DNA of 45,484 bases from a virus. The notes beneath the pieces were generated by a model. The model made no database searches. It saw only the letters and a program-made list of their open reading frames with translations, and was not told the DNA's origin. Each line of letters opens with the position of its first letter. The stretch's first letter is position 1. A program made the translations under genes and the position numbers. Positions 5,926 through 38,070 of the stretch are shown here, one piece after another. The stretch spans positions 1-45,484 of IMG/VR virus record IMGVR_UViG_3300027985_000652; one strand, written 5' to 3'.

Positions 5926-6384
5926 ATGAAAAAGTATCTATTCTTTATAGTAGCCCTTATTGGGCTACTTGCCGCCTGCGAGGCAGACGCGCAATCGACC
6001 CCCAGTAAAACGCTATCTTCCACGCAGTACTACTACGGGGACGACGCGAACTATTCACTAACTACCGCAGGGGATTCCGTGTTAAACTATACGATTCTCA
6101 TAAATAAACCCGGTGCGGTTTATTATGACGTACAGTTAAATCTGGATTCCGTAAGTGGTACGCCTTCTTACGTATTGGATTTGAAAGGTAAGGTATTCGC
6201 CTCTGATCCATGGACGGACTTAGAAACAGACGTTACATGGGTAGGCAGCAGCTCGGATACTACAGTTTTATTTCAAGAGCATAGCACCGCGCAATTTTAC
6301 AGGTATATCCAATTACAAGTAAAAGGGCAGGCAGGCACAGGAGCCGCAACCCTAGATAACGCTGAATTCAAATTCTGGGAATAA
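5926..6384 (+). CDS. Exported head/tail-region protein with Q-rule signal peptide
   Basis: An unrecognised 152-residue protein with a clear signal peptide: MKKYLFFIVALIGLLAACEADAQ. The ATG at 5926 is preferred over an in-frame TTG at 5914, because it gives a normal lysine-rich signal start. Two processing options are visible. One is a lipobox (LAAC) giving a lipoprotein; the other is signal peptidase I cleavage after ADA, leaving Gln, as in the Bacteroidetes Q-rule. The mature part is Ser/Thr/Tyr-rich and beta-like (KTLSSTQYYYGDDANY...), which could be a small beta-sandwich. It sits between the capsid gene and connector genes, an odd place for an exported protein. Confidence 0.65.
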   Translation: MKKYLFFIVALIGLLAACEADAQSTPSKTLSSTQYYYGDDANYSLTTAGDSVLNYTILINKPGAVYYDVQLNLDSVSGTPSYVLDLKGKVFASDPWTDLETDVTWVGSSSDTTVLFQEHSTAQFYRYIQLQVKGQAGTGAATLDNAEFKFWE

Positions 6385-6386
6385 TA

Positions 6387-7460
6387 ATGTACAATAAAAC
6401 TCAGGTTGTATCTAGTTTATATGGATTAGTGGGGTTCGAAAACCCTGCTAATCCTATATACCAACGCGTAAGTACGGAAAACCAAGCTTCGCGATCAGGC
6501 AGATTCTATACTGATAGCCCCTATTGTAAAATAGAATGGTTCGTCGATAATATGGACTATGAGGCTGCCGATACTACACAGATCAACGCTGAGTTAAAAG
6601 CTTTATCGGATAACGCCGTTATGCGTATCTGTGATAAAGTATTTGATAAATCTGATTATATCGACCGACAACTACTCTACCAGAACGCAAATAATAAAAT
6701 ACATACCGACAATTTACCTGCTGGTAATTTCGTAGGTTACCGGATACAGACTTCTTTAGAAAAAAACGTCGCCTTTAAAATCACACGCACGATATTGGAA
6801 TTCGAGGGTACAGGGGATTTAACCCTATACCTTTTCAATTCCGCCGAAAAAGAGCCTATTCAAAATGAGACCGTTAGCATAACCAGCGCAAATCAAAGCC
6901 TTACCCTCGATTGGGTTATTGATTACAACGCCTCCTACTATAAAGGCGATTTTTATTTCGGCTATCTGGCCGATGAGGCTATAACCGCCGGGCTGACCCC
7001 CATTAAAAGAGATTACAACGCGGCTAGTATAAAAAGTATTATAACCTACCAATGCTGGGAAAATATACAGGTGCCGGGGGTTACTACTGCCGAACTTTGG
7101 GATTTAGATAACATCGAAGGCACGGACGAGTGCTGGGGCTTAAACCCTGATATAACCGTGTATGAAGATTTTACCGATTTAGTAATACAGAATCAGCACC
7201 TATTCGCAAAGGCTATCGAGATGCAAGGGCAGATCAATTTCCTGCAAAAAATAATATCCTCCCGGCGATCTAATTTTAACGAGAGGCTCTCAAAAGAAGT
7301 AGCCAACAAATTACTTGTAGAGATCGAAGGGATCGCGGATACCAATAAAATTGGATTGAAAAGAGAATTACGCGCCGAACTGGGTACTTTGCGAAAAGAA
7401 ATCGAAAGGCTGCAATTAGGGTATTATCCCGGTGATTTTATTTTAAATACCCTATCCTAA
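6387..7460 (+). CDS. Structural protein of the head-tail region
   Basis: An unrecognised 357-residue protein. The first two thirds look beta-rich with many aromatic residues; the last 90 residues are helical and coiled-coil-like (LFAKAIEMQGQINFLQ, then LRAELGTLRKEIERLQ). There is no signal peptide. The gene sits two bases after the exported protein gene and overlaps the next gene by one base, so it belongs to the late operon. By position between capsid and tail-completion genes it may be a connector, head-decoration or neck-fibre protein. Confidence 0.6.
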   Translation: MYNKTQVVSSLYGLVGFENPANPIYQRVSTENQASRSGRFYTDSPYCKIEWFVDNMDYEAADTTQINAELKALSDNAVMRICDKVFDKSDYIDRQLLYQNANNKIHTDNLPAGNFVGYRIQTSLEKNVAFKITRTILEFEGTGDLTLYLFNSAEKEPIQNETVSITSANQSLTLDWVIDYNASYYKGDFYFGYLADEAITAGLTPIKRDYNAASIKSIITYQCWENIQVPGVTTAELWDLDNIEGTDECWGLNPDITVYEDFTDLVIQNQHLFAKAIEMQGQINFLQKIISSRRSNFNERLSKEVANKLLVEIEGIADTNKIGLKRELRAELGTLRKEIERLQLGYYPGDFILNTLS

Positions 7461-9852: not shown

Positions 9853-9865
9853 AAATTAAAATAAT

Positions 9866-10774: not shown

Positions 10775-10784
10775 CTTTTTGGTA

Positions 10785-11231
10785 ATGGAGGTTTTTGAGC
10801 AGCTTTTAGACAATATCCTTCAGGTGCAACGCGCTTTGCCGGGTATTGTCTATTCGGCTGCCCAGAATAACTCCGAAAGCCTGATAGATTTAAACGTCGG
10901 CCAACTCATGAAAGGCCGGACGAGTGAGGATAAACTCATAACGCCCGAATACACCTCGGACGATTACGCCAGATTGAAAAAAGCTTTAGGGTCGCAAGCC
11001 CCTTTAGGTACGCCGGATTTGATTTTAGAAGGGGATTTCACCGGAGCTTTTTATACTGAGCAGAAGCCGGGGGCTATTCTGATAGATTCCCGCGATTCGA
11101 AAACCGAAGATTTAGCGGGTAAATACGAAAATATTTTCGGCCTGAACAATAAGAGCCGAAAGGAATTCAGTGAAATAATGCTTTCCGAAGCAATAGAGAC
11201 TATCGAAAATGAAATCATTAGAGGCTTGTAA
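10785..11231 (+). CDS. Tail-region protein before the chaperone genes
   Basis: A 148-residue protein. ATG 10785 is used instead of TTG 10779. The pattern of helical N-terminus, LIDLNVGQLMKGRTSEDK, then FTGAFY and a closing IFGLN..SR.EF matches a small protein I recognise as recurrent in Bacteroidota phages and prophages next to tail genes; its function is not known to me. It overlaps the next gene by 23 bases. There are no membrane segments. It could be a minor tail or tail-completion component. Confidence 0.6.
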   Translation: MEVFEQLLDNILQVQRALPGIVYSAAQNNSESLIDLNVGQLMKGRTSEDKLITPEYTSDDYARLKKALGSQAPLGTPDLILEGDFTGAFYTEQKPGAILIDSRDSKTEDLAGKYENIFGLNNKSRKEFSEIMLSEAIETIENEIIRGL

Positions 11232-11604
11232 GAGCGGGGCTTTAGCCCATGCAACCGTAACCGGATTAGATACAGCAGTTATAAAACTGGCCGGAAAAGA
11301 TAATTTTGGTTATGTAACCGCCCGGAATGCTACCGGGAAAATTGTATTTTTAGCAAAAAAAGAAGGTGATAAAACCGTACTTTATGATAACGCAGGGCGT
11401 GAGGTTCGGCATATCGGAGAGGATAAACCGAGCAAAGGAGCAAAAAAGGGTAAAAAGCCTGAAAAGGTATACGACTTGCCGGACGCTCCCGGCAGAGAGG
11501 TTTTTCCAGATAGCGCAAACGGGGGATCGGACACTGTTATTGATAACGAAGAACTTTCCGAGTATCGAACCGCCGGATTTAGAGGATTTATGGACACAGA
11601 TTAG
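11209..11604 (+). CDS. Tail assembly chaperone, short form (gpG-like)
   Basis: A 131-residue protein placed directly upstream of the tape measure gene. It has a small beta domain (residues 15-70) followed by a lysine-rich linker and an acidic C-terminal tail. The long overlap with the following open frame, and the lack of a good start for that frame, fit a gpG/gpGT pair, in which a minority of ribosomes shift frame to make a longer chaperone. The second frame is +1 (equal to -2) relative to this one. The chaperone role is inferred from order and overlap, not from homology. Confidence 0.55.
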   Translation: MKSLEACKSGALAHATVTGLDTAVIKLAGKDNFGYVTARNATGKIVFLAKKEGDKTVLYDNAGREVRHIGEDKPSKGAKKGKKPEKVYDLPDAPGREVFPDSANGGSDTVIDNEELSEYRTAGFRGFMDTD

Positions 11605-12031
11605 ATTAGAGTACGAGGAACTATCAAAAGATAATTCTTTTTCTGCGAAGCTGGCCGATACTAACGAGACAGCGCAGGAAGCTAACTATATAAACCGTCT
11701 CATAGCTATTTATCAATTGATGTTAATGGGGGATGAGACAGTAATTAAAGAGGCAGAAGCAATTGGATTTGATTTTGAAAAAATAGACCTCGATTCTATA
11801 CAGGCGATAAAGCAAGAAATCGAACTTTCAAAAACAAATCTCGATATCTATCTGATGGTGAATTCCGGCGAGAAAAAGAACGAGTTTGATTTTTTACAGG
11901 AATTGCAAAGGCTTAGTAATTTTTGGGGGCGTAACATACCGAGAAGTATTACTATAGCAGAATGGGTCTTTTTAATAAGGGATACAAAAGCAAAAAATAA
12001 AAAGCATGGCGAGGCTTCAAGAATTCAATAG
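11366..12031 (+). CDS. Tail assembly chaperone, frameshift extension (gpT-like)
   Basis: An open frame in +1 relative to the previous gene. The credible protein part begins near residue 70 (PPDLEDLWTQIRLEYEEL) and is helical, ending in IPRSITIAEWVFLIRD, a C-terminal pattern I recognise from proteins that precede tape measures in Bacteroidota phages. The first 50 or so residues read like a shadow of the neighbouring frame, so I doubt that ATG 11366 is used. The part after about 11522 is probably joined to the upstream product by frameshifting, or started at TTG 11540. The end overlaps the tape measure start by 26 bases. Confidence 0.6.
   Translation: MIKPYFMITQGVRFGISERINRAKEQKRVKSLKRYTTCRTLPAERFFQIAQTGDRTLLLITKNFPSIEPPDLEDLWTQIRLEYEELSKDNSFSAKLADTNETAQEANYINRLIAIYQLMLMGDETVIKEAEAIGFDFEKIDLDSIQAIKQEIELSKTNLDIYLMVNSGEKKNEFDFLQELQRLSNFWGRNIPRSITIAEWVFLIRDTKAKNKKHGEASRIQ
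11521..11526 (+). other. Possible +1 frameshift site GGGGGA
   Basis: In the overlap of the two chaperone frames, the codons AAC-GGG-GGA contain five G in a row. A tRNA on GGG can move one base forward and still pair with GGG, after which reading continues in the long second frame. Other sites in the overlap (for example CTT-TCC near 11551) are possible. No downstream pseudoknot was worked out. Confidence 0.3.
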
Positions 12032-15000
12032 CGAGATACAAGCACTTAATAAATCTTTAGAAGCCGTTAAAAAACAGGTTTTAGCAGTATTGGATGCAAC
12101 TAAAGCACTCGATCAGCAATTTCAAACGGGGGCTACTAATCAAAAAGGTTTATCTGATCGGATAAAACAGACAAATACGAATTTAGATATTTTAGCAAAA
12201 TCCGAGCAAGAATTACAAAAGATTCAAAAACAAACAAGCGATACTATTGCTAAAGCCCGGGCGGAGCGCTCCGAGGAAAACAAACAACTAATAAAAGCGC
12301 AGGAAGCCCGCAAAGATCAAAATGCAAAAATAAAAGAGGGTATTAAGTTACAACAAGCCGAACAAAATTCTATATCTCGGCTGATTGCCGAAAATAAGAA
12401 ATTGCGCAAAGAACGCGATAGCTTAAATACCTCGACTGATGAGGGGAAAAAAAGAATTACCGAAATAAATTCAAAAATAAATGCCAACACTACTATAATA
12501 AAAGCCAACTCCTCAGCCCTAGAATCCCAAAAAATGAATGTCGGCAATTATAAGAGCGCTTTAGAAGGGCTATCAGGGGGGCTGGGAAAAATATCGCAAG
12601 GTTTTAAAATAGCAACGGCATCAATATTTGCAGCCCTAGCCGCCCTAAAGGGAACAATCGAAGGGATAAAGGCTTATGTAAATCTTAATCGCGAAGTGAT
12701 TAGTCAAACAGCAAAGACGGCGGCTATTTTTAAAATGAGTGAAGGAGAGGCGAGAAAACTTACCGGACAGATGCGTAAGCTCGGAGCCGCTTTTGATAAA
12801 GATTTTAACGATGTATTAAAGTCATCCACCATATTATCTAAAGAATTCGGTATTTCAGGTAGTGAGGCTGTCGCTTTAATCGAGGAGGGTTTTAAAAAAG
12901 GAGCGGACGTAAACGGAGAATTTTTAGAATTGCTCAAAGAGTACCCGGCGCAACTTAAAGGGGTAGGATTGAGTGCCGAAGAAACTATCGCGATAATAAC
13001 ACAAACCGAACGAGAAGGGGTGTTCTCGGATAAAGGTATAGACGCGATTAAAGAGGCTGGGATACGTTTAAGAGAACTGACCCCGGCTACAAGAGCTGCG
13101 CTTGACGGTATCGGGTTAAGTTCGAAGGAAATAGAAAAAAGTTTAGCTGATGGTTCGAAAACATTATTCCAAGTAACGCAGGAAGTTTCGGGGCAATTAT
13201 CGAAGCTGCCACCTCAAAGCGCAGCCGTTGGGACGGCCATAGCAGATATATTCGGGGGCGCGGGTGAGGACGCGGGTTTGAGATTTTTAACTACCTTAAA
13301 AGATATAAATACGGATTTATCGTCGGTCGAAACAACTTTATCAAAAGATGAGCAAGCCACCATAAGCCTAAGAGAGGCTTGGGAGGATATAAAAATGGCT
13401 TCCGTTGGCACCGGGGGCGCGATAACTTCCATAAAAAGCGGCTTAGCTTCTTTATTGGTTAGCGTTTTGAAATTTAGGAATGATTTCATAGAGGGCTTTA
13501 ACGATTTGATAAAAAGTAGCGCAGTATTTAGGGCTTTTATGGTAGTACTTGGTCAGTCCGTAAAACTTAGTTTCAAAACTATGAAGGAAAGCGTAATGTT
13601 GACCATAGAGCCGGTTATACTTTTAGGAAGGATTATAAAAGACGCTTTAGCGGGGGATTTTAACGCAGTAAGCCGTGTACAGCAGTCTTTTGAGGCTATG
13701 AAAAATAGGACAGTAGAACTAGGGGAAGCTTTTTTAGATTCAGGAAAAGCTATTGCTGAGGCGTATAAGGGAGATAATATAGATCAGTTCTTATTAGGAC
13801 AAAAAGAAATCCCCAAAACAGTAAATGAAACTACTGAGGCGTATATAAAACAAGCAGAGGTAATAAAGAAGACTGCTAAAAGTGCTAAAGATTTAGAAGA
13901 CGAGCGCGAAAAGAGAATAAAAAAATTTATGGACGCTATTGATTCTGAAACTGAAAAAGAAATAGTAGCAAATAAAAAGAAGCTCCTTACAAAAGAGATA
14001 GATGAACGTACTTTTAATCAAAACATATTAGCTATTCAAATAGCAGCTTTTCAAGAGCAGCTAAAAAATGCAGAATTAACTGCGAGTGAACGCCTAAAAA
14101 TAGAAAGTGAGTTGGTTGATCAGCAATTAGCTTTAGAAAAAGTCTTAACCGAGGAGCGGAGAAAGGATGCCGAAAATAGTATGGCTTTTGAGCTATTGGA
14201 GGAAAAGAAAAAGTTATTAGGATTTAAAGGAACGCAGGAAGAAAAGGCGAAAGCCTTTGAGGAATTCGCTATCGCAACTCTTCAAGCTCAGATACAACTT
14301 AATATACAGTTACTTGAAGATACAAGTATGACTGCCGAAGAAAGATTAAATATTGAAAGCAGTTTAGTAGATCAGCAATTGGCTTTAGAGGAAAAATTGG
14401 CTTCTGAAAAAGCCAAGAACGACGCCGAAGAACTGGCGCGAAAAAAAGCCATACAAGCGGAATTAGTTAATATAGCGAATGCGGCTTTTGATCTTAATGC
14501 GGCATTGAATGAAAGGCAATTGGCAGATTTAGAATTACAAAAAGAAAACGAACTAGCTTTAGTAGGCGACAATGAAGAGGCCAAAGCCGCTATTGAAGAG
14601 GACTTCGCCCGGCGTTCAGCTGAAATAAAACGTAAACAAGCTATCGCCGATAAACTACAAGCCCTTTTTAATATCGCTATCAATACCGCTCAGGGTATAA
14701 CTGCCGCCCTCGCGCTCTTACCGCCCAATCCCTTCCTAGCGACTTTCATAGGTATCACTGGAGGTATTCAGGCCGCCGCCGTTTTAGCTAGACCGATACC
14801 CCAATTTAAAGATGGGGTTATTGATTTTGAAGGAGGCAAAGCGATAGTAGGCGAGGCGGGTTCAGAGTTAATCACTTTAAAATCGGGAGAAACTTTTCTA
14901 TCCCCCGATAGGGCTACTATGCTGGATTTACCAGAAGGTACAAGCGTAATACCTCATGAGCAAACAAAAGAAATCATAAAATCAGGCATTACGGACGACC

Positions 15001-15155
15001 GAATAAATGAACTCATTGCGGAAACCCGGCTCACACGTAAAGCTATCGCTGCGCGTCCGCTCCGGCAAACATTGATAAACCAGCACGGATTTAAAGAAAT
15101 GACACGGAGGGGGAATAGCCAGACTGAGTGGGTAGATAGATACATAAAATCATAA
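12006..15155 (+). CDS. Tail tape measure protein
   Basis: Sets tail length; 1049 residues, which at the usual 0.15 nm per residue would predict a tail of roughly 150 nm. Order of parts: an N-terminal coiled coil (residues 1-170); hydrophobic segments near residues 195-215; a TMP-type domain at about 230-430 (SGSEAVALIEEGFKKGADVN, ...LPPQSAAVGTAIADIFGG), typical of phage minor tail proteins of the PhageMin_Tail type; long helices with two near-repeats around TASERLKIESELVDQQLALE and TAEERLNIESSLVDQQLALE; hydrophobic segments near 895-935; and a C-terminal GEAGSELITLKSGETFLSP region also common in tape measures. It overlaps the chaperone frame at its start. Confidence 0.93.
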   Translation: MARLQEFNSEIQALNKSLEAVKKQVLAVLDATKALDQQFQTGATNQKGLSDRIKQTNTNLDILAKSEQELQKIQKQTSDTIAKARAERSEENKQLIKAQEARKDQNAKIKEGIKLQQAEQNSISRLIAENKKLRKERDSLNTSTDEGKKRITEINSKINANTTIIKANSSALESQKMNVGNYKSALEGLSGGLGKISQGFKIATASIFAALAALKGTIEGIKAYVNLNREVISQTAKTAAIFKMSEGEARKLTGQMRKLGAAFDKDFNDVLKSSTILSKEFGISGSEAVALIEEGFKKGADVNGEFLELLKEYPAQLKGVGLSAEETIAIITQTEREGVFSDKGIDAIKEAGIRLRELTPATRAALDGIGLSSKEIEKSLADGSKTLFQVTQEVSGQLSKLPPQSAAVGTAIADIFGGAGEDAGLRFLTTLKDINTDLSSVETTLSKDEQATISLREAWEDIKMASVGTGGAITSIKSGLASLLVSVLKFRNDFIEGFNDLIKSSAVFRAFMVVLGQSVKLSFKTMKESVMLTIEPVILLGRIIKDALAGDFNAVSRVQQSFEAMKNRTVELGEAFLDSGKAIAEAYKGDNIDQFLLGQKEIPKTVNETTEAYIKQAEVIKKTAKSAKDLEDEREKRIKKFMDAIDSETEKEIVANKKKLLTKEIDERTFNQNILAIQIAAFQEQLKNAELTASERLKIESELVDQQLALEKVLTEERRKDAENSMAFELLEEKKKLLGFKGTQEEKAKAFEEFAIATLQAQIQLNIQLLEDTSMTAEERLNIESSLVDQQLALEEKLASEKAKNDAEELARKKAIQAELVNIANAAFDLNAALNERQLADLELQKENELALVGDNEEAKAAIEEDFARRSAEIKRKQAIADKLQALFNIAINTAQGITAALALLPPNPFLATFIGITGGIQAAAVLARPIPQFKDGVIDFEGGKAIVGEAGSELITLKSGETFLSPDRATMLDLPEGTSVIPHEQTKEIIKSGITDDRINELIAETRLTRKAIAARPLRQTLINQHGFKEMTRRGNSQTEWVDRYIKS

Positions 15156-17410
15156 TGAAACAGTACAAATACGAACTGACATATAACGATTTGGGGCTAA
15201 GTGAGGTGCTTAGTATTAATCCGGCAGGGGCCAGGGAATTGGGTATCGTATTTTCACGTAATGAAACCTATAATTCCGTACTTCGTTCGTTCGTACTCTC
15301 TTTACGGTTCCCCCGTAAGCCGGGGGGAGGCGGCACGAATATAGAAAATAGCTATTTTTTAAAAGGTATAAGCGCGTCCGTGGATGTTAGTATCAGTGAA
15401 TTAGACCCCGATACAAACACCTATTTAGTTATCTATACCGGAATTCTGGATTTTAACCCTGATAGGTTTACCCGGCAAAAGGATTTTATTGAAATAGGAT
15501 TAATCGATTCCGATAAACTCCAAAAGTTCAAAGCGCGCGATGATATAAATTTCGACGTAAACAGCACTACCAGTGCAGACGATGTGGCGGTAGCCGCATT
15601 TTCAAATACGCCCAGATCAATAATTTTCAAACCCATTGATATTTTGTTATCGGTCGAGCAGATATGTCGGGTACAAATAGACCGTGTTATTTTTACAGCC
15701 CCCCAAATAGCCACTTTGGTACCATATGAGTTCTATTATTATGCGTTATCAATAGGGCTGAACGAAAGCGGGGATAGATTGAGAACTGATACCGGATTAA
15801 CGGGAGCCACCTCGGTTATTTACCGAAACAGTACTGATTATTTAACGGAAATACTCTTTACAGACGTGGCGGTTTTAGGCGATACTGCTTTGGTTGATTT
15901 TTACGATATAAGGCTCAGTACAAGTGAGACGGCGGCCGCTTTAGTGCAAGCAGAATTAAAAATGCTCGTTAAAAATGATGATGAGCAACTCGGGGAAACT
16001 ATTATTTTTTCGAGGACAATCCGTTTTGAAAAAAATAGCGGCGATCCTATATATGCAACCCCTGATAGGGTTTATATAAATTTCGATTTATCTTCTATAC
16101 GATCTAGGGGTTTTTTAGTACCCTCTGGCGGGACTATGGAATTTATATTAACCATTTATCCCACGGCTTTAGATAGCTGGAAGGCGATGAGGGCGGAGGT
16201 TTTCGGGGCTTTAAGAAACAATATAAATTTTATAGAGAATGTACTCTCTGTAAATCAAACCCCCGCTGATAGTTTTCTACCTTATGAAGCTTTTACCCGG
16301 CTCATCCAGCTATCAACAAGCGAAACGGATACCTCAAAATTGTTATATTCTAATTTCTTTGGACGCACTGATAGCGAGTTTCAAACATACGGCGTAAACG
16401 GGCAGGGGGCTTTAGATGCGATCTCCTCAATATGGAATATACGGCAGTTCCCTAACCGGGCTTTTAACCTGAACATAAAAACACTATTTCAAACCTTTGA
16501 CGCTATTTACGCGCTCGGTATGGGTTACGATAAAATAAACGACCGCTTTTATATCGAGCCTATCGAGAACTTCTATAAGAGTTCATACCTTATGTTCGAT
16601 CTGGGCGAAGTGGCCGAATTCACAATCAAACCATATAAAGAGGCTTTCGCCAGTAAAATACTATCGGGATATGATGAGAAAGGGGACTATGAAGATTTAA
16701 AGGGGGTGAACGAGTACAACGTGCAAAATGAGCACTCCATGGTCTTACCCGTAGTGGATTCGGTCGAGTATAGAGGGGTGTACAATACGGATAGCCTCAC
16801 TCCCGAACTCGCGCGAAGAAAACAGTACGTGAATTATGCTTCCGAAGACACCCGTTACGACGATAAAATAGTTATAGTGCGCACTGATGGCACGACCACT
16901 ATAGTAAACGGTACAACGGCAACAGGTTTCAAAGGGGTTGAGCAATATTATAATATAGCCCTATCCCCCCGGGAGAACCTTATAAGGCAGGCGGGGCGAA
17001 TAAAGGCAGCTCTATGGCTCCACGATTTAAAGGTTAAATTTGTAAAAAGCTCGAAAAGTACTAATCTATCCTATAGAAACCAGCACGGGACTACGGTTAA
17101 CGAATTCGACGATCTGACGGCCGCCGACTTACAAAAATCCCAGCTATTCATCCCTGAGGTTTACGAATTCGAAAGTAAGATAACCCCCGCTATATTAGCC
17201 GCGCTAAATACTGATCCCCACGGTTTTATCAGGTTTAGTTTTAACGGCACCGATTACGAGGGTTATTTATTGAATCTGGAAAGCGGTTATCAGGATCGAA
17301 AGGCAAAATATAAGCTTGTAGCAAAAGAAATAAGCGAGGGCGATAATTTTATTTTTGAAGACGGTAACAATTTCGTATTTGAGGACGGAAATAATTTTAT
17401 ATTTGAATAA
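15155..17410 (+). CDS. Tail tip / distal tail protein
   Basis: A 751-residue protein directly after the tape measure, where distal tail and tail-associated proteins are found. It begins MKQYKYELTYNDLG and is strand-rich, with parts resembling the hub/distal-tail beta domains. The extreme C-terminus repeats the octapeptide DGNNF[IV]FE (three copies in slightly varied form), a low-complexity ending I associate with Bacteroidota phage tail proteins. Its stop overlaps the next start by one base (TAATG). No enzymatic motif is evident. Confidence 0.7.
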   Translation: MKQYKYELTYNDLGLSEVLSINPAGARELGIVFSRNETYNSVLRSFVLSLRFPRKPGGGGTNIENSYFLKGISASVDVSISELDPDTNTYLVIYTGILDFNPDRFTRQKDFIEIGLIDSDKLQKFKARDDINFDVNSTTSADDVAVAAFSNTPRSIIFKPIDILLSVEQICRVQIDRVIFTAPQIATLVPYEFYYYALSIGLNESGDRLRTDTGLTGATSVIYRNSTDYLTEILFTDVAVLGDTALVDFYDIRLSTSETAAALVQAELKMLVKNDDEQLGETIIFSRTIRFEKNSGDPIYATPDRVYINFDLSSIRSRGFLVPSGGTMEFILTIYPTALDSWKAMRAEVFGALRNNINFIENVLSVNQTPADSFLPYEAFTRLIQLSTSETDTSKLLYSNFFGRTDSEFQTYGVNGQGALDAISSIWNIRQFPNRAFNLNIKTLFQTFDAIYALGMGYDKINDRFYIEPIENFYKSSYLMFDLGEVAEFTIKPYKEAFASKILSGYDEKGDYEDLKGVNEYNVQNEHSMVLPVVDSVEYRGVYNTDSLTPELARRKQYVNYASEDTRYDDKIVIVRTDGTTTIVNGTTATGFKGVEQYYNIALSPRENLIRQAGRIKAALWLHDLKVKFVKSSKSTNLSYRNQHGTTVNEFDDLTAADLQKSQLFIPEVYEFESKITPAILAALNTDPHGFIRFSFNGTDYEGYLLNLESGYQDRKAKYKLVAKEISEGDNFIFEDGNNFVFEDGNNFIFE

Positions 17411-18228: not shown

Positions 18229-18232
18229 CAGC

Positions 18233-18661
18233 ATGGCAGATTTTAAATTAAGCGAGCTTAGTGAGATACTTGATTCTACCGGGGGGTACTTATACATAAT
18301 TGTGCCCGACGGTCTGGGGGGATGGGATTTTGGAAGGATAACGGCCAGCACTTTCCTTCAATCGTCGGATGATATTACACAAAAAGAGGTAAATATATCT
18401 TCCGATTTTGAATTCGTCGCCCCTGCCAGTTCTTTACTTCGGGGTATCCGTTTCCAATGGCTCTCAGGCAGCCCAAAGATAAAGGTAGGTACTACGCCGG
18501 GGGGCACTGAGATTTCACTGGTGCAGCATAATGTACCTAACAGCGACTATCTCAACCTAATGACTATAAATAAAAATTTTACAACCGCGACGACTGTATA
18601 CATATCGGTAAGCGGCGGAGCGGTTAATTTTAACATAGATTATAAAGAAAATGATTTTTAA
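18233..18661 (+). CDS. Small fibre-adaptor-like protein
   Basis: A 142-residue protein beginning MADFKLSELSEILDSTGGYL, an opening similar in style to the N-terminus of phage tail fibres that dock to the tail (KISEL...). The rest is strand-rich and ends in a beta sandwich-like segment (TTVYISVSGGAVNFNIDYKE). It overlaps the large fibre gene by 11 bases. It probably connects fibres to the tail tip or is a short fibre head. Confidence 0.55.
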   Translation: MADFKLSELSEILDSTGGYLYIIVPDGLGGWDFGRITASTFLQSSDDITQKEVNISSDFEFVAPASSLLRGIRFQWLSGSPKIKVGTTPGGTEISLVQHNVPNSDYLNLMTINKNFTTATTVYISVSGGAVNFNIDYKENDF

Positions 18662-21479
18662 GAAAATAATATTTGTGCCGTCGTTTTTACTGTTGGTTCT
18701 GGCTTCTTACGGGCAATCCGTTGGGCTTTTTACGTATGCTGTCGTCCGGGATTCGCTTTGTATCGGCGATAGCTGCGTAAAATTTCTTTACGGGGACTCT
18801 TTAGTAAGTGCCGATTTCTTGCGGGAAACTTTAGCGACTTTCGTAGCTGATTCAGCCGAATACGCTGATACTGCCGGCTATTCTTTTAAAACCAGATATT
18901 CGGAGGATACTACCTTCGTGGCTATCGATCTTAAATATATTGATTTTGACACGAACTATACCACCCCTACCTCCCCCGCATACCGAAAAGGGCGTAAATA
19001 CTACAATAGTACTACAGGTAGCTTCGTAAGCTACGTAAATGACCCCGAAGTATCCCTGAATGAGGGGCAAGAGCTATACATATACGGCCAGAATGCCACC
19101 AATACAACGCTAACGAACGGCACCGTCCTTTGGATAGATAGTTGCTCTACTTGCGCTTTTCCGGTGTTTCGCCGGGCGATAGCGGATAACCCCGAGATAG
19201 CGGCGGCGACTATCGCCGTAGCAACCCACGATATAGAGCCGGGTACTTTCGGGTATGGTACGCGATTCGGCGGGGTAGGCATCGACGCGACGGGGTTAGA
19301 TGATAACGTACTACTCTATGTTTCCCCGGTCGACAGTGGCCGACTTGTTAATTATTCCCCTAAGATGCCTTTCTATAAAGTGCGCGTAGGGCGTGTTATA
19401 AAAACAGGGGCACAGGGTACTTTAGGGGTAGACGTTGAGCCGTTCACGGGTAACGATACCCAAGTAGCCGCCGACGGGATACTGAATGGTATCATATTAG
19501 ACAATCAATCCCTACGAGATACGGTTATAGGGGGCATTCTTTATTTCGAAACCAATAACCAAACTAACGACACTATCGACCTGCCCTTCATGTATGAAAA
19601 TGAAATCCATCTTCTGAATACAACCTCGGGCGCGGGTAAAGACGGCCGGGCGCGCGTCGCTCTAACTTGGGGCACTGCGACAAATGCCACAACTAACTAT
19701 ATTTATATCGACAATTCAGGAGCGAACCCGGTACTGGCTGCAAATACTACCGGATTTCCTGCTAATGGGGTACGTCTAGCGCAGGCTAGCGCGTTCAACC
19801 AAACAGTGCACGAGGCGCAAGGGTTCGCAACTATGCAGAGGTTTAACAACAGCGTAAACGGCAGCCCAGCAGCGGGCTGGATAAGTAGGGCGGCAAAGCG
19901 TATTCGGGTTGATGGGTCAAAATACGAAAGCGGTATCGATCCAACGGTAACGATAATAACCAGTGCGGGGGTAGATAGTCTACAGGTCAGTACTACTTCG
20001 GGAGTGCAGTATCAATTCAATCAGCAAACTTTCGGGGCGCAAAACGGTAAAAGGTACCTGTGGGCGAATGACCCCGCAGTACCCGGGGGTATGACTTGGA
20101 TAACTGACCTGAACCAGATAACGGTAGATGCCAATAATAATACGCTGCGATTGAACAATACTCGATACGGGTTAAATCTGTTCAGCGTTCAGAATAGCGG
20201 GGATTACGAAAGCTTTATTCTAGTTATGACCCCTAACGGCTCTTATTCCAGCGATGCAAACGCAATCGCCGACGTAAATAGTTATGCTATATCGACCCCA
20301 CCGACACAATTTAGAAAAGTGGCTACCCGGTTATTTAGAATCGTTGTAAATTACAGCACGTCTGCAGGGGGTACGTTTACAAATCTTTTAGGCTCCGGGG
20401 GTTATCAGGATGAAAGGGGGTTCCCTTTAGGCACAGCCGGAGGCGGGGGAGGTTCTGGCGGAGCTTTAACGAATTTTAGCGACGCTGATTTCTACGTATA
20501 TAATTCCGCTGACCCTACGAAGATCGCGGATTTCGATATATCGGCACTTACTACAGGGGTAACACGCACCCTCACAATGGCCGATGAAAACGTAGATTTG
20601 CGAAAGCGCGTAGATACTACCGGAACTTCGGCAACTACTCAGGTAGCCCTATTCAGCAGCCCCAGAACTATCGAAGGGGACGCTAATTTCACGTATGCGG
20701 CTGACGTACTGAATGTGGACGAAGATGAGGGAGGTAGTTATTTTAATCTTGATTTAAAGCCAGATCGACCGACTTTAGATATTTATTTACAGGATACCGC
20801 TAACGGTTTTTCTTCTTATGGCAGCTATACCTTTGATTCCCGAGCTATGTATTTAGGGTATTATAAAGACGGGGACAGTACCCAATATTCGCAATATGGC
20901 GGCAATACCGCCGGGGCAGAGCCCTATGCTTGGTTTAAAACTGAATTCGCCAGAACCAATTACGGGGCTTCTGGTATCCAAAACGCCCCATATTTAGATG
21001 AAGCAACTTCCTTCATACCGGGGTTAAGCCTATACTACGATAGTGCTTTTTCAGGAGGGACCATCGATAAAGGTATTACCTATCTACAGATATGGAAAGA
21101 CGGGGTTACTGCTACACATAACGGGGTCGAAGTGCTGAATATCAATGAGGATAAATTAAATATTTACAAAGGGGTTGAGGTCGCCACTACCTCAGAAACT
21201 TTTGCAGCAACGAAAACGATTGATTTTTCAAGTCAGTACGATGTGGAATATACCGTAACCGGTAATACGGATATTACGGTAACGAATATCCCGGAGGGCG
21301 TAAGCCCTAAATTAGCTTTGATTTATTCAGGGAATTATACGGTAACTTTGGCGGGGGCTACTCAAATGGGAGGGAATACAGCGACCTTTCAAAATGTGAA
21401 CGGAGCTATAGACTTAATACAGTTCGACGAGATAAACGGTACGCAATACTATGCAATAATGAACGTAAACATACCCTAA
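18651..21479 (+). CDS. Large tail fibre-like protein with signal peptide
   Basis: A 942-residue protein. The N-terminus has a lysine start, a hydrophobic core (IIFVPSFLLLVLASYG) and Gln at the predicted cleavage point, fitting the Bacteroidetes Q-rule. After it come a motif typical of phage fibres (SFVSYVNDPEVSLNEGQE followed by YIYGQNATNTTLTNGTVLW), long Thr/Asn/Gly-rich stretches, a Gly-rich linker (GGGGGSGG near residue 600), and a C-terminal beta domain. A fibre or receptor-binding role is likely. Export of a fibre is puzzling, since tails assemble in the cytoplasm. It overlaps the next gene by one base. Confidence 0.7.
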   Translation: MIFKKIIFVPSFLLLVLASYGQSVGLFTYAVVRDSLCIGDSCVKFLYGDSLVSADFLRETLATFVADSAEYADTAGYSFKTRYSEDTTFVAIDLKYIDFDTNYTTPTSPAYRKGRKYYNSTTGSFVSYVNDPEVSLNEGQELYIYGQNATNTTLTNGTVLWIDSCSTCAFPVFRRAIADNPEIAAATIAVATHDIEPGTFGYGTRFGGVGIDATGLDDNVLLYVSPVDSGRLVNYSPKMPFYKVRVGRVIKTGAQGTLGVDVEPFTGNDTQVAADGILNGIILDNQSLRDTVIGGILYFETNNQTNDTIDLPFMYENEIHLLNTTSGAGKDGRARVALTWGTATNATTNYIYIDNSGANPVLAANTTGFPANGVRLAQASAFNQTVHEAQGFATMQRFNNSVNGSPAAGWISRAAKRIRVDGSKYESGIDPTVTIITSAGVDSLQVSTTSGVQYQFNQQTFGAQNGKRYLWANDPAVPGGMTWITDLNQITVDANNNTLRLNNTRYGLNLFSVQNSGDYESFILVMTPNGSYSSDANAIADVNSYAISTPPTQFRKVATRLFRIVVNYSTSAGGTFTNLLGSGGYQDERGFPLGTAGGGGGSGGALTNFSDADFYVYNSADPTKIADFDISALTTGVTRTLTMADENVDLRKRVDTTGTSATTQVALFSSPRTIEGDANFTYAADVLNVDEDEGGSYFNLDLKPDRPTLDIYLQDTANGFSSYGSYTFDSRAMYLGYYKDGDSTQYSQYGGNTAGAEPYAWFKTEFARTNYGASGIQNAPYLDEATSFIPGLSLYYDSAFSGGTIDKGITYLQIWKDGVTATHNGVEVLNINEDKLNIYKGVEVATTSETFAATKTIDFSSQYDVEYTVTGNTDITVTNIPEGVSPKLALIYSGNYTVTLAGATQMGGNTATFQNVNGAIDLIQFDEINGTQYYAIMNVNIP

Positions 21480-21835
21480 TGAGCGAAATACTTTATCGAG
21501 GCGAAGACCTCCAAATATTAGTGAGGCTTTATCAGGACGAAGCCAAAACAGTCCCTATCAATATCGACGACCTCGAAGATTTGGAAGTCCGGGCGTTTGT
21601 CGGAGCGGCAGATATAGGAATGTGGAATAAAACCGGAGGCGGCGATTTCACGGCTCTATCTCGGATCGATGCCTATAATTACTATTTTTATATTTCCGCT
21701 GGCAGCACTACCCCGGTCGGTAATATCGATCTGTGGTTCGAAGCCATTGAGGTAGACGCAGAGTTACCGGATGGTTTCAAAAATACCATTTCATCGGGGG
21801 CGGGAGTGATTTGTTTAAAAGATAAACCCTATTAG
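21479..21835 (+). CDS. Small baseplate-like protein
   Basis: A 118-residue protein with the opening YRGEDLQILVRLYQDEAKTVPINI, which resembles the Ig-like N-terminal domain of upper baseplate (BppU-type) proteins that mount fibres. The rest continues in beta-sandwich style. No signal peptide. It lies between two large fibre-like genes and overlaps the first by one base. Function inferred from pattern and place. Confidence 0.55.
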   Translation: MSEILYRGEDLQILVRLYQDEAKTVPINIDDLEDLEVRAFVGAADIGMWNKTGGGDFTALSRIDAYNYYFYISAGSTTPVGNIDLWFEAIEVDAELPDGFKNTISSGAGVICLKDKPY

Positions 21836-21836
21836 T

Positions 21837-22145
21837 ATGCAGGTAGATATTGTAGTTAATAACAGTAAAAAGATAGACGTAACGATCAATCGCGGCACTC
21901 TTATTTTTGAGTCAGTCCTCGATTTGACTGATAATGCGAATATAGATTTAGTTTCTGGGGTAAGCTATGAGTATCCGAATCCTTTTACTCTGCCTATAAA
22001 GCCCCGATTCGTTGACCTCTTAAGCCCTTCGGGGGATAACCTTTTAAAATTCGTCGATATTACTATCGATCAAACAACCGGGGATATATCTATTTATTCC
22101 GGAACTTCTTATACAAATGCAATTCTAAATATACAAGGATGGTAA
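21837..22145 (+). CDS. Small tail-region protein
   Basis: A 102-residue protein, strand-rich, with no signal peptide (VDIVVNNSKKIDVTINRGTL...). It starts two bases after the previous stop and overlaps the following spike gene by 7 bases. The size and place suggest an adaptor or chaperone for the spike protein. No family was recognised. Confidence 0.55.
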   Translation: MQVDIVVNNSKKIDVTINRGTLIFESVLDLTDNANIDLVSGVSYEYPNPFTLPIKPRFVDLLSPSGDNLLKFVDITIDQTTGDISIYSGTSYTNAILNIQGW

Positions 22146-24847
22146 AATATTTAATTATAGGGGCTTTCTTATTTTCAAACCTCGCCGGATTCTCACAACT
22201 AAGGCCGATAACTTACGACAGGCCAGTAATTTTTAACCAGCCTATAGCTTTGGGAGCGGATACGATAGATTCATGGGATAGTATCGGCCACCCCTATATT
22301 ATTGTTGACGATGTAACGGCGAGAGATACTATCTATTCAAAAAATAGGGTAGAGGGATTATTGGTTCATGTGAAAAACCCTTATTCATGGTACCAGCTGG
22401 TCGGGGGAACGGCAAACAGCGATTGGCTTGGGCTGGATATAAAGCGTATCGCCTCAACGGGTAGTGACGTTTATCTATATGTGGCCTCCACCGGATCAGA
22501 CCTCACAGGGGACGGTACGATAAGTAACCCCTATGCTACCTATAGCAGAGCCATCGAAGATATACCCGATATTAACATCGCTATCACGGTAACGATTCAC
22601 AACCTATTCGGCAGTCTGGCCTTCACTGATGCAGATAAAGCCTCTTTAGGGCGGAAAACATATAAATCCTGTTTCCTGACTTTTACCGGTGAAATGGCGA
22701 TCGTCGAGAGTGGAATAACTTTTACTGAAAAAGTTCTGAACAATATGGAATACACCGCTAGTAAAGCGGGGCTAACAATAGCAGAAAACCAATACAGGGG
22801 TATGTATCTGGCTGACGGGGCGCAGTACTACCCTATACCTTATAATTCTGCCGGAACTAATACCTTCGATTTAACCTATCTACGCGGGGCGCGTAACGGG
22901 ACGCGGAGCATAGTTGATAACGCCAGCACCCTGGACGTATCCGGTCAAGCTACCGATATATTGAATTTCAATTTCCCGGGCATTAATAAAATAACCTTTA
23001 TCAATTTAGAAATAGACGCCGGAACTAATAACATAGACTTTAGCCTCTTACAAAATTTTACGGAATTCGATTTCGCAACGCGTATAAAATGTGATCAGTT
23101 AATATTCGGGTCTAGCAATGACCCGAGCCAAGTAGTTTTCGGCCTTACGGGTGTAGTGATGGAAAGCAGTAATACAGGAGCTGCTGTAGACACCTACGAC
23201 GGGCAGGTAAATATAAATATCACCCGCAGTTATATTCAAAACGTGAATAATGTTTCAGCCTCAGATCAGGTGTTAAAGGCTTCTAAAAATTCCAACATAA
23301 GATTAAGGGAGTGCGCCATACGAGGAGGTGGTACCTGTTCAGGCTTAAGCGCAACCAGAGGGGCGTATTTTGATCTATCCAAGACGAATATATTCTACGA
23401 TCTAAACGCTGTTGCAGGCTTCGAATACGGGGGCGGCAAACTATTGAATGATCTTACACAAGGGTATTCCCGAGTACTGACCAGAAACACAAGTTACTTA
23501 ACAGCCTATTTAGAAGATGATACGCAAATATACGTTGGTGTACTGTATACCGATGGCTCCTATGTTGGTACTTTTGCCGCCGGGCTGGATGAGGTATATA
23601 TCGATCCGGGCAGGGAGATAGTGATTAAAGTTCCGAATGAATCGCAGAATTTTGTATTTAAAGATTCTGTTGTCACAGTGATGATGCCCGATACCTTAGT
23701 TAATAAAGCCTACGTAGATGCTAATATAGGGAGCGGAGGGCTAGCAGAGATACCCTATTGGAATAGGGTTGACACTGGCCAGACGTTTACGGGGACTATT
23801 TATTTAAACTCGTTAAAAACAAACTATAATAATTACATAGTAAATAATGATTTTACAATAAACTATGTATACAATTTAGCGAAGGGTACAACGAGCAGCA
23901 ATGTAATACTACTTGGTAACGGAGTTAACGTCGTTGATTTCGGGGGGGCTACACAAAAGGATTTGGCTTTTGATAATGCTGCAAATACAGCAAACGCAAC
24001 GTGTATTTGGCAACAAGGGGGTAAAGTATACTACTCTATTTATGATCAGTATATACTTGACGAGACCCCGCCTGTGCTACAGTCGGCGCAAGTTCCTGAG
24101 ACTGATAAGGGTATTATTGAATTAACATTCAATGAGGCCGTATATATCAGCTCTGACGGATGGGCAATAAACGGGGATACTATCACCGTGGCCAGCGTGG
24201 CTAATTCTGGAAGCGCGACCCCTAGTTTTATTTTGCATTATGATACGAATAAGGATAGCACCTATACGTTAACTTATTCATCAACAAGTGGCACTACCTC
24301 GGATTTAAGCGGGAATTATTTGGTTTCGTTAACCGATACCAGTGTGGCTTATAATTTTACCGGAGAAAAATTAGTGTCTCTACCTACGCGAACAAATATT
24401 GATAGTACAGAATTTATATTTGTTTCAACCACGTCCGATGCCACTGGGGTAAGCGATCAGACCCTGCCAGGTGATTTCATTTATTATTATGAATTCAATT
24501 CCGGGTTTGTAAATTCAGGTAGCGCTACTATTGGACTTGATTCACTAAGTAATCAGGAGCAGCAAAACGGATTCAAATATGGATATTATTACGTGAGTAC
24601 TAACGATTGGAGGGCAGTCGTAGATGGCAATGTGATAAGCGTATCTGGTGAGCCCCCCTTGCTAAATGGCGATTATATCGGAATACGAAGGGTAGGCACA
24701 ATTGTAGATATAGTACATAGTACGGATGCCGGGGCTACGTGGGATACGTATTATACATTTGCTAAAATATCCGATAAAACTTTATATATGAAAGTGTTCA
24801 TGGGACCAAGTGGAAGAGGGTTCTATAAGCTAAAAACAAGACAATGA
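22139..24847 (+). CDS. Tail spike-like protein: beta-helix and SwmB-like domain, signal peptide
   Basis: A 902-residue protein. A signal peptide (MVKYLIIGAFLFSNLAGFSQ) has Gln at the expected Q-rule site. Residues 115-145 carry VASTGSDLTGDG...NPYATYSRAI, the entry motif of right-handed parallel beta-helix proteins (pectate-lyase-like), followed by about 300 residues consistent with helix coils. A later domain (ETPPVLQSAQV...LTFNEAVY, near residues 645-750) resembles SwmB/Ig-like repeats of surface proteins. The C-terminal 150 residues form another beta domain. This layout is common in depolymerase-type tail spikes; no catalytic residues are identified. Confidence 0.65.
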   Translation: MVKYLIIGAFLFSNLAGFSQLRPITYDRPVIFNQPIALGADTIDSWDSIGHPYIIVDDVTARDTIYSKNRVEGLLVHVKNPYSWYQLVGGTANSDWLGLDIKRIASTGSDVYLYVASTGSDLTGDGTISNPYATYSRAIEDIPDINIAITVTIHNLFGSLAFTDADKASLGRKTYKSCFLTFTGEMAIVESGITFTEKVLNNMEYTASKAGLTIAENQYRGMYLADGAQYYPIPYNSAGTNTFDLTYLRGARNGTRSIVDNASTLDVSGQATDILNFNFPGINKITFINLEIDAGTNNIDFSLLQNFTEFDFATRIKCDQLIFGSSNDPSQVVFGLTGVVMESSNTGAAVDTYDGQVNINITRSYIQNVNNVSASDQVLKASKNSNIRLRECAIRGGGTCSGLSATRGAYFDLSKTNIFYDLNAVAGFEYGGGKLLNDLTQGYSRVLTRNTSYLTAYLEDDTQIYVGVLYTDGSYVGTFAAGLDEVYIDPGREIVIKVPNESQNFVFKDSVVTVMMPDTLVNKAYVDANIGSGGLAEIPYWNRVDTGQTFTGTIYLNSLKTNYNNYIVNNDFTINYVYNLAKGTTSSNVILLGNGVNVVDFGGATQKDLAFDNAANTANATCIWQQGGKVYYSIYDQYILDETPPVLQSAQVPETDKGIIELTFNEAVYISSDGWAINGDTITVASVANSGSATPSFILHYDTNKDSTYTLTYSSTSGTTSDLSGNYLVSLTDTSVAYNFTGEKLVSLPTRTNIDSTEFIFVSTTSDATGVSDQTLPGDFIYYYEFNSGFVNSGSATIGLDSLSNQEQQNGFKYGYYYVSTNDWRAVVDGNVISVSGEPPLLNGDYIGIRRVGTIVDIVHSTDAGATWDTYYTFAKISDKTLYMKVFMGPSGRGFYKLKTRQ

Positions 24848-25677
24848 GAATAGCAGTATTAATGTTATACCTGCCTATTTTGTGCTATTCGCAGGATGAG
24901 TATTTATACACCTTTCAACGTGAAGCCGTGGATACTATATTCGTAATATGGGACGGGAATTCAAACAATACCAGCGAAGCAGATACTTCATTATTTCCGA
25001 GTTATATTAAAACTCACGAATACACTTCGAAAACATGGTTTAATGGTGATTTTGAGGCGTTGAATTACCCAGTTAATCATAGAGGTATGATGCTCACAAA
25101 TACCGGGGCTATTGCGTTAACAAGTAAATGCGGTTCTCAGCTGGAATGCCTGTATAGAATCGAAACGAATACCAACCTTATGGTATATTCATTATTTGTA
25201 GGTCGAGCCGGAATGAAAATGTACGATGGTTTTAAACCATATACCTATCCGGGGTATGTCAGACTATCTACCAAGGTGGATAGCTGTTTGCAATATTTTG
25301 AAACCAATCATATTACGATAGATAAAACCTTCTATTTTGGCAGCGTATGGAATTTCGGGGATTTTGTAGAACCCTATGCAACACAATATAAAGCAAATTT
25401 AGAACTCTTAATAGACGCGATTCAGAACAATTTAGGACTAATAAAACCGAATATAGTTATACACAGAGTTCAATCCTATCATATAACTGATGCAACCCGG
25501 GCAAAGGTTCAAGATGCGCAAATGTCTGTTAGTAACGTAACCAGTTATTGCACTTGGAACGATCAGGACGGCTACGAAACAGGGGGCGATAATATCCATT
25601 TGAATGGAAACGGCCAGACTTCAAAAGGATATAACGAATTTCAATACATTATTTCACCGAGATACTTTACAAAATGA
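24844..25677 (+). CDS. SGNH/SASA-type esterase with signal peptide
   Basis: A 277-residue protein. The signal peptide MRIAVLMLYLPILCYSQ has Gln at the Q-rule site. In the mature part, DGNSNN (Ser40) matches the block I GQSN motif of sialate O-acetylesterase-like SGNH hydrolases, and GGDNIHLNGNGQ (Asp249, His252) matches the block V DxxH motif. Together they supply a Ser-His-Asp set. The likely reaction is removal of O-acetyl groups from carbohydrates. In its setting between spike-like genes it could act on capsule or surface glycan during entry or release. It overlaps both neighbours by 4 bases, so expression is coupled. Confidence 0.6.
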   Translation: MRIAVLMLYLPILCYSQDEYLYTFQREAVDTIFVIWDGNSNNTSEADTSLFPSYIKTHEYTSKTWFNGDFEALNYPVNHRGMMLTNTGAIALTSKCGSQLECLYRIETNTNLMVYSLFVGRAGMKMYDGFKPYTYPGYVRLSTKVDSCLQYFETNHITIDKTFYFGSVWNFGDFVEPYATQYKANLELLIDAIQNNLGLIKPNIVIHRVQSYHITDATRAKVQDAQMSVSNVTSYCTWNDQDGYETGGDNIHLNGNGQTSKGYNEFQYIISPRYFTK

Positions 25678-26606
25678 GATACCCGATTCTGTTATTGGTC
25701 GCGCTAAGTTTTAATGCGCAAGCTCAATTTGGATTGCTTTTTCAAAATTTCGAAACCCAGGAAAGCGGTTTTGTTTTCAAAGATGCGAACGCAAGGGCGT
25801 ACTACTATGCCCTTGAAGGGGCAGGTTATGATACTATGGCCGACTTTAGAAAAGAAGCAATAGATAGTCTTTTTTTAAGTATGAAAGGTTTACGCCCTGG
25901 AAACGATACGGCCTATTATGATAGTATCTCTATAGCCTATCTATTCATAGGCTATGATTCAGCGCACACCGGGTATAATTTGATCGATACAGGGGCTTTT
26001 AAAGGTAAGTTCCAAGGGTCTGGATACGCTTTTAATAATTATTACGATCGAAACTCACAAGAAAATTATATGCGGACAGGCTTCGATATGCGCGAGAACG
26101 GCCTGTTAGATAGCGCCTCCCTGAGTATTGGATTTGCTTTAATAAATGTAGCCGCAGGTTCATCAAATACAAGTGTAACAGGCCTACGCGGTTATGATTA
26201 TGCAAGTAACACGTCTTTCCATTATATAGAGATGCAACCGTCTACAGGGGATTTTCATTTCAGAAATAATGGGGTAGATAACGATAATTTAGTATCTGGC
26301 TCTGGTACTATAACGGAAGCGTTTTTCATAGGCTCTCGCCCCGACGCGTCTACGACTAAGGCGTATAACGGGACAACTATAAATACAGAATCCAGCACAG
26401 TAGATGAGGGTACGCCGTGTTTTGACCCTACTTTAGGTTCTTTGAACTTTGCCTCATCCGCAACGCCTAGTTGTGGAGGGTATTTGCAAGGAGGGAGTTT
26501 GGTATTTGATGTAACATGGTATTTTGTGGGAAAAGGGCTTTCTGATGCACAAATGCGGAACATGAAGACGGATATAGACAACTTTAATACTAAATTCAAC
26601 CGATGA
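25674..26606 (+). CDS. LamG/concanavalin-like protein with signal peptide
   Basis: A 310-residue protein. The signal peptide MRYPILLLVALSFNAQAQ is followed by Gln at the cleavage point (or one residue further). The mature part has a beta-sandwich pattern (SIGFALINV, FHYIEMQPSTGDFHF, LVFDVTWYFVGKGLSDAQM), ending with a short helix. GKGLSDAQM...K.DI is typical of the end of LamG/concanavalin-like domains in phage and surface proteins. Probable carbohydrate binding. It is coupled to the esterase (4-base overlap) and to the next gene. Confidence 0.55.
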   Translation: MRYPILLLVALSFNAQAQFGLLFQNFETQESGFVFKDANARAYYYALEGAGYDTMADFRKEAIDSLFLSMKGLRPGNDTAYYDSISIAYLFIGYDSAHTGYNLIDTGAFKGKFQGSGYAFNNYYDRNSQENYMRTGFDMRENGLLDSASLSIGFALINVAAGSSNTSVTGLRGYDYASNTSFHYIEMQPSTGDFHFRNNGVDNDNLVSGSGTITEAFFIGSRPDASTTKAYNGTTINTESSTVDEGTPCFDPTLGSLNFASSATPSCGGYLQGGSLVFDVTWYFVGKGLSDAQMRNMKTDIDNFNTKFNR

Positions 26607-29308: not shown

Positions 29309-29324
29309 CCAATAAATAGAAACT

Positions 29325-37827: not shown

Positions 37828-38070
37828 ATGCAAACCAAAGACTTAGAAAGCAGAATTGCAAAATATTGTAAGGATAACCCATACGAAGCGATGCGTACCG
37901 CTGAACTTATTTACAAAAAATTGCAAATGCTACCAGTACGTGAATTTGCAGCAATTAGCACACTGTCAGAAAAAACAGTTTACAATATGGTTTCCGATCT
38001 TGAGAATGCAAAAATTGAGGTCGCCGTATTAGGCGGCATTAAATTCATCCCTAAAATTTTAAACCCATGA
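37828..38070 (+). CDS. Small HTH protein, copy 1
   Basis: An 80-residue protein. The helical N-terminal half (ESRIAKYCKDNPYEAMRTAEL) is followed by a helix-turn-helix-like segment (VREFAAISTLSEKTVYNMVS, residues 37-56) and a beta-like end (VAVLGGIKFIPKIL). It differs from copy 2 (41583) at only eight residues, five of them between 36 and 49 in the HTH. Likely a DNA-binding regulator. The ATG lies four bases after the end repeat of the YopX cassette, so its original leader has been replaced. Confidence 0.65.
   Translation: MQTKDLESRIAKYCKDNPYEAMRTAELIYKKLQMLPVREFAAISTLSEKTVYNMVSDLENAKIEVAVLGGIKFIPKILNP

Follow-up and report, generated by a model that had tools for sequence, protein, structure and literature searches.

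Tailed phages are, in the textbook account, built in the cytoplasm of their host and released complete. Why, then, would such a phage equip its structural proteins for export? The question arises in the 45,484-base virus contig IMGVR_UViG_3300027985_000652 (in the following the window, meaning the whole stretch), which terminase and capsid searches place among the tailed phages of Bacteroidota, and in which a first-pass annotation had pointed to five genes of the structural block (5926, 18651, 22139, 24844 and 25674, named by their first base) as starting with Sec signal peptides. We consider it probable that the five products are virion proteins, which take the route of host Sec and signal peptidase I and join particles outside the cytoplasm, when the cell lyses or later.

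Signal peptides of the five genes

The starts and signal peptides given in the first-pass annotation held for all five genes, the best cleavage site leaving Gln as first residue in 5 of 5, as judged with a signal-peptide caller that is a rule set of our own and not SignalP. All five have the positively charged n-region, the hydrophobic core, A, G or S at position -1 and Gln at +1 that make up the Q-rule:

5926..5991 (+), signal peptide of 5926: MKKYLFFIVALIGLLAACEADA then Q; site ADA/Q; a lipobox-like LAAC inside
18651..18713 (+), signal peptide of 18651: MIFKKIIFVPSFLLLVLASYG then Q; site SYG/Q
22139..22195 (+), signal peptide of 22139: MVKYLIIGAFLFSNLAGFS then Q; site GFS/Q
24844..24891 (+), signal peptide of 24844: MRIAVLMLYLPILCYS then Q; site CYS/Q
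25674..25724 (+), signal peptide of 25674: MRYPILLLVALSFNAQA then Q; site AQA/Q, alternatively FNA/Q

Chance is a poor explanation for this set, since the 52 window genes gave six Q-type calls, namely the five genes and 27566, which we judge to be a holin-like membrane segment, while 52 genes with shuffled N-termini gave a mean of 0.17 calls (maximum 3), 52 with random residues 0.07 (maximum 2), and internal Met starts none at all (0 of 128). Given each hydrophobic core, a Q site is expected by chance with P 0.05-0.11 per gene, the product being 2e-6. Genes 24844, 25674 and 26603 each overlap the preceding stop by four bases, which fixes the starts of 24844 and 25674; 18651 likewise overlaps the gene upstream of it, and the 5926 protein, read from its ATG, contains no second Met. 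In Bacteroidota on average 71% of the predicted signal peptidase I substrates carry Gln at +1 (PMC5837995), and the Gln can hence be taken as a mark of adaptation to a Bacteroidota host. Export by type IX secretion was rejected, since the NCBIfam matches of the five proteins included no family for the C-terminal sorting domain of that system.

Fibres with signal peptides annotated as virion proteins

The notion that such proteins end up in particles is furthermore in agreement with two Cellulophaga phages in which fibre genes with signal peptides follow one another behind the tail tip, as in the window. The record of phi19:1 (NC_021799) annotates gp101, gp102, gp103 and gp104 as virion proteins from tandem mass spectrometry (MS/MS), and all four have signal peptides, three of which leave Gln, the site of gp104 lying before Lys without a Gln. 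The record of phi10:1 (NC_021802) annotates gp091-gp094 in the same way, with Q-type signal peptides in 4 of 4. It should also be mentioned that the pectate-lyase spike of the phi10:1 group shares 44-50% identity, over some 660 residues, with the spikes of phi17:2 and phi14:2, which have another N-terminal part and no signal peptide; for phi14:2, too, MS/MS is given as the basis for annotating the spike as a virion protein. The enzyme domain is thus seen joined to two different N-terminal parts, one of which includes an export signal.

Relatives of the window phage

Searches of viral contigs with the 5926, 18651 and 24844 proteins returned no relatives, nor did a search of named phages with the 24844 protein, and relatives were therefore reached by way of the terminase and the major capsid protein (MCP). 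The window terminase is 59% identical to that of LS06-2018-MD05 (LS06), its weaker matches being chiefly to phages of Bacteroides, Flavobacterium and Cellulophaga, with Streptococcus and Vibrio among the remainder. The MCP aligns with those of Pan5 (27.5% identity over 99%, annotated as MCP) and LS06 (26.1%), and the three contigs found with an MCP profile in the genome collection all have Bacteroidota titles (3/3). The MCP was not found in any of the 20 terminase relatives searched for it. In the 49 loci of terminase relatives (L005-L053) Q-type calls were few, a full fibre block being read in a minority of them.

Q-rule signal peptides were also noted in Pan5 (L002, ON968456) at 5945-6346 and 20965-22086, and in LS06 (L003, OP947161) at 29163-29576. 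Both phages are related to Bacteroidota phages and yet carry host labels of a cyanobacterium and of Rhodobacteraceae, respectively, labels that may be wrong.

The gene following the capsid gene

The first-pass annotation had grouped all five as tail and fibre genes; 5926 lies directly after the capsid gene in the head module and is accordingly not a tail or fibre gene. We refer to its place as the slot:

4863..5921 (+), MCP gene, with the identity to Pan5 given above, directly upstream of 5926
5926..6384 (+), slot protein, 152 aa, with signal peptide and predicted to be exported, its gene lying between those of the MCP and the adaptor; a candidate for head decoration (cement)
6387..7460 (+), adaptor-like head gene closing the slot; phrog_8189, E 1.6e-33, unknown function; same order in relatives

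Related MCPs were found in 39 records, five of which end too soon, and a signal-peptide gene comes next after the MCP gene in 14 of the 34 assessable ones, with Gln in 14 of 14; as L069/L071 and L075/L076 are near-duplicates, these represent about 12 distinct records. The other 20 lack a signal peptide on the next gene, which is mostly adaptor-like, L057 having a 144 aa gene instead. A second MCP scan added only three contigs (L184-L186), all slot-negative (3/3), and G001 (the contig of L005), which ends inside the MCP gene, was excluded from the count. Twelve aligned slot proteins show 16-45% identity to the first sequence, and their only invariant columns are the +1 Gln and one Gly. Gene 5926 fits the description of decoration-protein genes as small and adjoining the MCP gene, and the depositors of Pan5 labelled its slot gene 'cement protein'. 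A PHROGs scan of the 12 slot proteins gave weak matches only, one of them to 'virion structural protein' at E 0.01. Two low-confidence models (pLDDT 70 and 63.5), a beta-rich one with a beta-sandwich among them, did not identify the fold, the best match of the VIA comparison (Z 7.7, for a low-confidence model) being to generic GH2 sandwich domains.

A profile of the slot proteins matched 5 of 395 Bacteroidota genomes, one of which is the genome of L087, itself part of the profile. The matches in G114, G149 and G396 lie in prophage-like regions and keep the Gln site, and the match in G193 resembles a host locus. The G396 prophage (L101), which has a sheath-like gene, carries a Q-type gene shortly downstream of a capsid-like gene, and G272, found by a separate MCP match, has a slot gene too (L100). 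At 9373-9774 of L098, a relative of the slot protein was seen near endolysin-like genes of another prophage type, with no recognised capsid gene before it.

The fibre block

The remaining four genes follow the tail-tip genes, and 26603 closes the block:

18651..21479 (+), fibre candidate, 942 aa, predicted to be exported, first of the exported fibre block; signal peptide; after the tail-tip genes; 12 sequons (defined below)
22139..24847 (+), spike or fibre candidate, 902 aa, predicted to be exported; signal peptide; phrog_4577 'tail protein', E 1.6e-6; 9 sequons
24844..25677 (+), SGNH-type carbohydrate esterase candidate, 277 aa, predicted to be exported; signal peptide; ATGA overlap with the previous stop
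25674..26606 (+), protein of unknown family, 310 aa, predicted to be exported; signal peptide; 6 sequons
26603..27178 (+), end of the block, 191 aa; signal-peptide-like start without Gln; no family match in Pfam or PHROGs

The 18651 protein matches Pfam Phage_tail_fib at E 0.026, which is under the cut-off, and the 24844 protein matches SASA at E 2.5e-4 with 21.2 bits against a curated cut-off of 24.8, the motifs GNSN and DNIH being present. No family was matched by the 25674 protein in scans of Pfam, PHROGs and NCBIfam.

Signal-peptide genes occupy the same position in the relatives G424, G425, G426 and G428, the fibre block of G001 includes such genes, and a Chitinophagaceae prophage (L103) has two at fibre position, of 990 and 1362 aa. 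Among the phages in which both sites are readable, which leaves out G427 and G001, signal-peptide fibres occur in 7 of 8 slot-positive phages (the window, Pan5, G424, G425, G426, G428 and G022 with, LS06 without) versus 2 of 10 slot-negative ones (G422 and G429 with; G418, G420, G423, P12002L, B40-8, B124-14, tant8-1 and phage 1/32 without), an association (Fisher p 0.015) that is indicative only, since the phages share ancestry and are not independent. The caller likewise found no signal peptides on the fibre genes of Fpv6, P12024S, mumin6-2, Streptococcus DCC1738 and Vibrio 1.189.O, and in the Bacteroides thetaiotaomicron phage BT2 it called a single Q-type gene of 138 aa.

The tail protein gene at 15155-17410 of the window ends (17350-17410) in three near-identical short repeats of the NNFxFEDG type. 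The larger of the two L103 proteins (10939-15027) has abhydrolase/PHB-depolymerase and PKD matches and contains 20 sequons.

O-glycosylation sequons

Bacteroidota attach periplasmic O-glycans to non-cytoplasmic proteins at D[ST] followed by a mostly hydrophobic residue (PMC12871550). We counted D[ST][AILVMT] and derived the expected numbers by shuffling each set of proteins. In their mature form, the five window proteins contain 31 sequons versus 12.9 expected, a count that none of 1000 shuffles reached, and 19 other head-tail proteins of the window contain 19 versus 20.5. In the relatives, 24 exported proteins, many of them homologous slot proteins, have 57 versus 19.8, and 284 others 262 versus 252.4. 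With the slot family left out (a slot protein row in L105 being removed beforehand), 22 fibre-block proteins of relatives have 104 versus 57.7, compared to 101 versus 95.8 in 80 proteins from these loci that are not exported; the 22- and 24-protein sets share loci (L055 and the L081/L113 contig), and the two enrichments are therefore not fully independent. Thirteen hand-picked fibre-position proteins from phages without signal peptides match their expectation (40 versus 40.0). When D is exchanged for E, N or K in the motif, as a control, the exported sets show no excess.

Host proteins show the signature in one lineage and not in another. The exported proteins of a Chitinophagaceae host genome, the one whose prophage carries the two fibre-position genes with signal peptides, have 61 sequons versus 28.7 expected and the others 123 versus 107.8, whereas the exported proteins of the genus Lacinutrix have 46 versus 48.6, so the signature depends on lineage. 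Where host and phage exported proteins are both enriched, the phage proteins resemble exported host proteins beyond what a signal peptide dictates, and the enrichment can be read as a second, independent sign that favours real export of the predicted proteins.

An approximately threefold depletion of the sequon was seen in the signal-peptide spikes of Cellulophaga phages, among the fibre genes of L116 and L125-L129.

Weighing the explanations

Several observations speak against an assembly route through the envelope. Export and cleavage in the window phage are predicted from sequence, the MS/MS basis of the Cellulophaga annotations consists of database notes, and secreted proteins could have co-purified with the particles. 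The Cellulophaga phages are furthermore not close relatives of the window phage, no sequence relation between their fibres and those of the window emerged, and the gene next after the capsid gene of phi19:1 has no signal peptide. LS06 has a slot gene, but its genes at fibre position, 41947 and 43749, both start without a signal peptide, and the slot-protein models match no known decoration protein, Foldseek giving no match at E <=0.001. The reversed sequon is also raised (28 versus 19.3 in the relatives' exported proteins, 327 versus 252.6 in the non-exported ones), meaning that the shuffle null is imperfect. Lastly, 25 Cellulophaga signal-peptide fibres have only 25 sequons versus 76.7 expected, or 14 versus 36.5 in 12 hand-picked representatives, a depletion that would make sense if the host glycosylates exported proteins and glycans are kept away from binding or active sites. 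It led us to reject glycosylation as the universal reason for export; going by these counts, what the phages share would be export, with glycosylation as a gain in some lineages at most.

The foremost alternative is that the proteins are exported without joining the virion, the phage releasing free adhesins and enzymes, such as an esterase and pectate-lyase-like spikes, along with a small protein of the periplasm, so as to alter or cover the host surface, exclude superinfecting phages or aid the escape of progeny from surface polysaccharide. Signal peptides and sequon enrichment indeed speak for exposure in the envelope and not for virion membership, the 24844 protein is esterase-like, and L103 codes for the 1362 aa signal-peptide protein with abhydrolase and PKD matches. 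Surface modification has been proposed for Q-rule proteins of phages (PMC10367356), and Lom of lambda, a signal-peptide protein of the outer membrane coded between spike and fibre genes, may serve as a model (PMC12309495). Against it stand the virion annotations of eight fibre proteins with signal peptides in phi19:1 and phi10:1, and the spike domain that has a signal peptide in some phages and, in others, a different N-terminal part without one; we therefore regard this explanation as rather unlikely, albeit the most serious of the rivals. It is still less probable that Sec is not used at all and that the hydrophobic N-termini act in the cytoplasm, by docking on the tail or the membrane or by being removed by a phage protease, as would suit the cytoplasmic assembly of tailed particles in known cases. 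Cleavage by the prohead protease has been suggested for the signal peptides of major capsid proteins (PMC10367356), but the pattern of n-, h- and c-region with Gln at +1 is common to unrelated proteins and equals the substrate rule of the host signal peptidase, and only signal-peptide proteins show a strong sequon signature, be it enrichment or depletion.

A lipoprotein nature of 5926, by which signal peptidase II would cut it at LAAC and the product would remain in the infected cell's membrane, with no bearing on what becomes of the fibres, seems very improbable. Its LIGLLAAC, the sole such sequence in the five genes, fits a lipobox motif, and Pfam LPAM_1 matches weakly at E 0.065, under the cut-off; among the 12 aligned slot proteins, however, only that of the window has Cys at the lipobox position, while Gln is kept in 12 of 12.

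The reading preferred here, with the five proteins joining particles outside the cytoplasm, also bears on the uses that the first-pass annotation had proposed. Decoration of virions outside the cell is the one best supported, by the MS/MS annotations of phi19:1 and phi10:1 and by the post-capsid and fibre positions of such genes in many related phages. Use of the N-terminal segment for oligomerisation fits poorly, because the unrelated proteins share only host signal-peptide features, including the host-specific Gln. Stripping or masking of the host surface by free protein may be an extra role; 24844 looks like a carbohydrate esterase.

A possible assembly route and its meaning

The five proteins would be made late in infection and exported to the periplasm through the host Sec translocase, where signal peptidase I would trim them to an N-terminal Gln and host glutaminyl cyclase would convert this to pyroglutamate. 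They would fold in the periplasm and, in the host lineage of the window, probably be O-glycosylated. Upon failure of the inner membrane at lysis, the tailed particles assembled in the cytoplasm would meet the exported proteins, spikes and fibres attaching at the tail tip and the small slot protein probably on the head, and the esterase-like 24844 candidate may act on surface polysaccharide, either on the particle or free. What we infer here are the cleavage and the pyroglutamate, the glycans, when and where the proteins attach, and that 5926 has a decoration role. Folding conditions suited to beta-helix spikes may be one benefit, as may keeping receptor-binding proteins off the particles until release; stability of extracytoplasmic proteins, a role put forward for the Q-rule (PMC10653852), is another possible one. 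We would give even chances to the wider proposition that many tailed Bacteroidota phages finish their virions outside the cytoplasm, with Sec-routed, Q-rule-trimmed and sometimes host-glycosylated decoration proteins and spikes joining at lysis, such that the particles become infectious and glycan-wearing only after leaving the cytoplasm.

Parts of such a route have precedents. Coat proteins of filamentous phages have Sec signal peptides and join the particle outside the cytoplasm, but these phages assemble at the inner membrane by extrusion, with no tailed particle and no lysis. Small decoration (cement) proteins such as Dec of phage L and Soc of T4 are able to bind finished shells, but the known proteins of this type are cytoplasmic, unlike the predicted 5926 product, which gave no fold match. 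Similar signal peptides are found in the Nixviridae prophages of Porphyromonas gingivalis, with five Q-rule genes of unknown function for which a change of the host outer membrane was proposed; in the portions of that report available, these genes likewise code for signal peptides leaving Gln first but are linked neither to the virion nor to positions for head decoration or fibres (PMC10367356, cited in turn by PMC10653852). Lom resembles the window proteins in being a signal-peptide protein coded between tail genes, but is a beta-barrel of the host outer membrane and, in the text available of the source, not described as part of the virion (PMC12309495). Among the papers listed by searches of the open-licence literature we recognised none that describes an assembly route in which spikes or decoration proteins of tailed Bacteroidota phages have signal peptides, which is weak evidence of novelty.

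If the route is real, infectivity would hinge on the Sec translocase, signal peptidase and glutaminyl cyclase of the host and perhaps on its O-glycosylation, receptor-binding proteins could differ chemically from what the gene predicts, and recombinant spikes from the cytoplasm of Escherichia coli may miss the native processing. Structural genes with Q-rule signal peptides would furthermore make a cheap genomic marker of a Bacteroidota host, one that casts doubt on the host labels of Pan5 and LS06.

Other features of the window

Among the genes of the replication region, 36286-36888 codes for a predicted lipoprotein, the start region of which ends in IFSAC. Two nearly identical genes of 80 aa lie about 3.5 kb apart (37828-38070 and 41583-41825), and a short protein at 29325-29582 shows KAEP repeats as well as a run of SRKQ repeats at the C-terminus.

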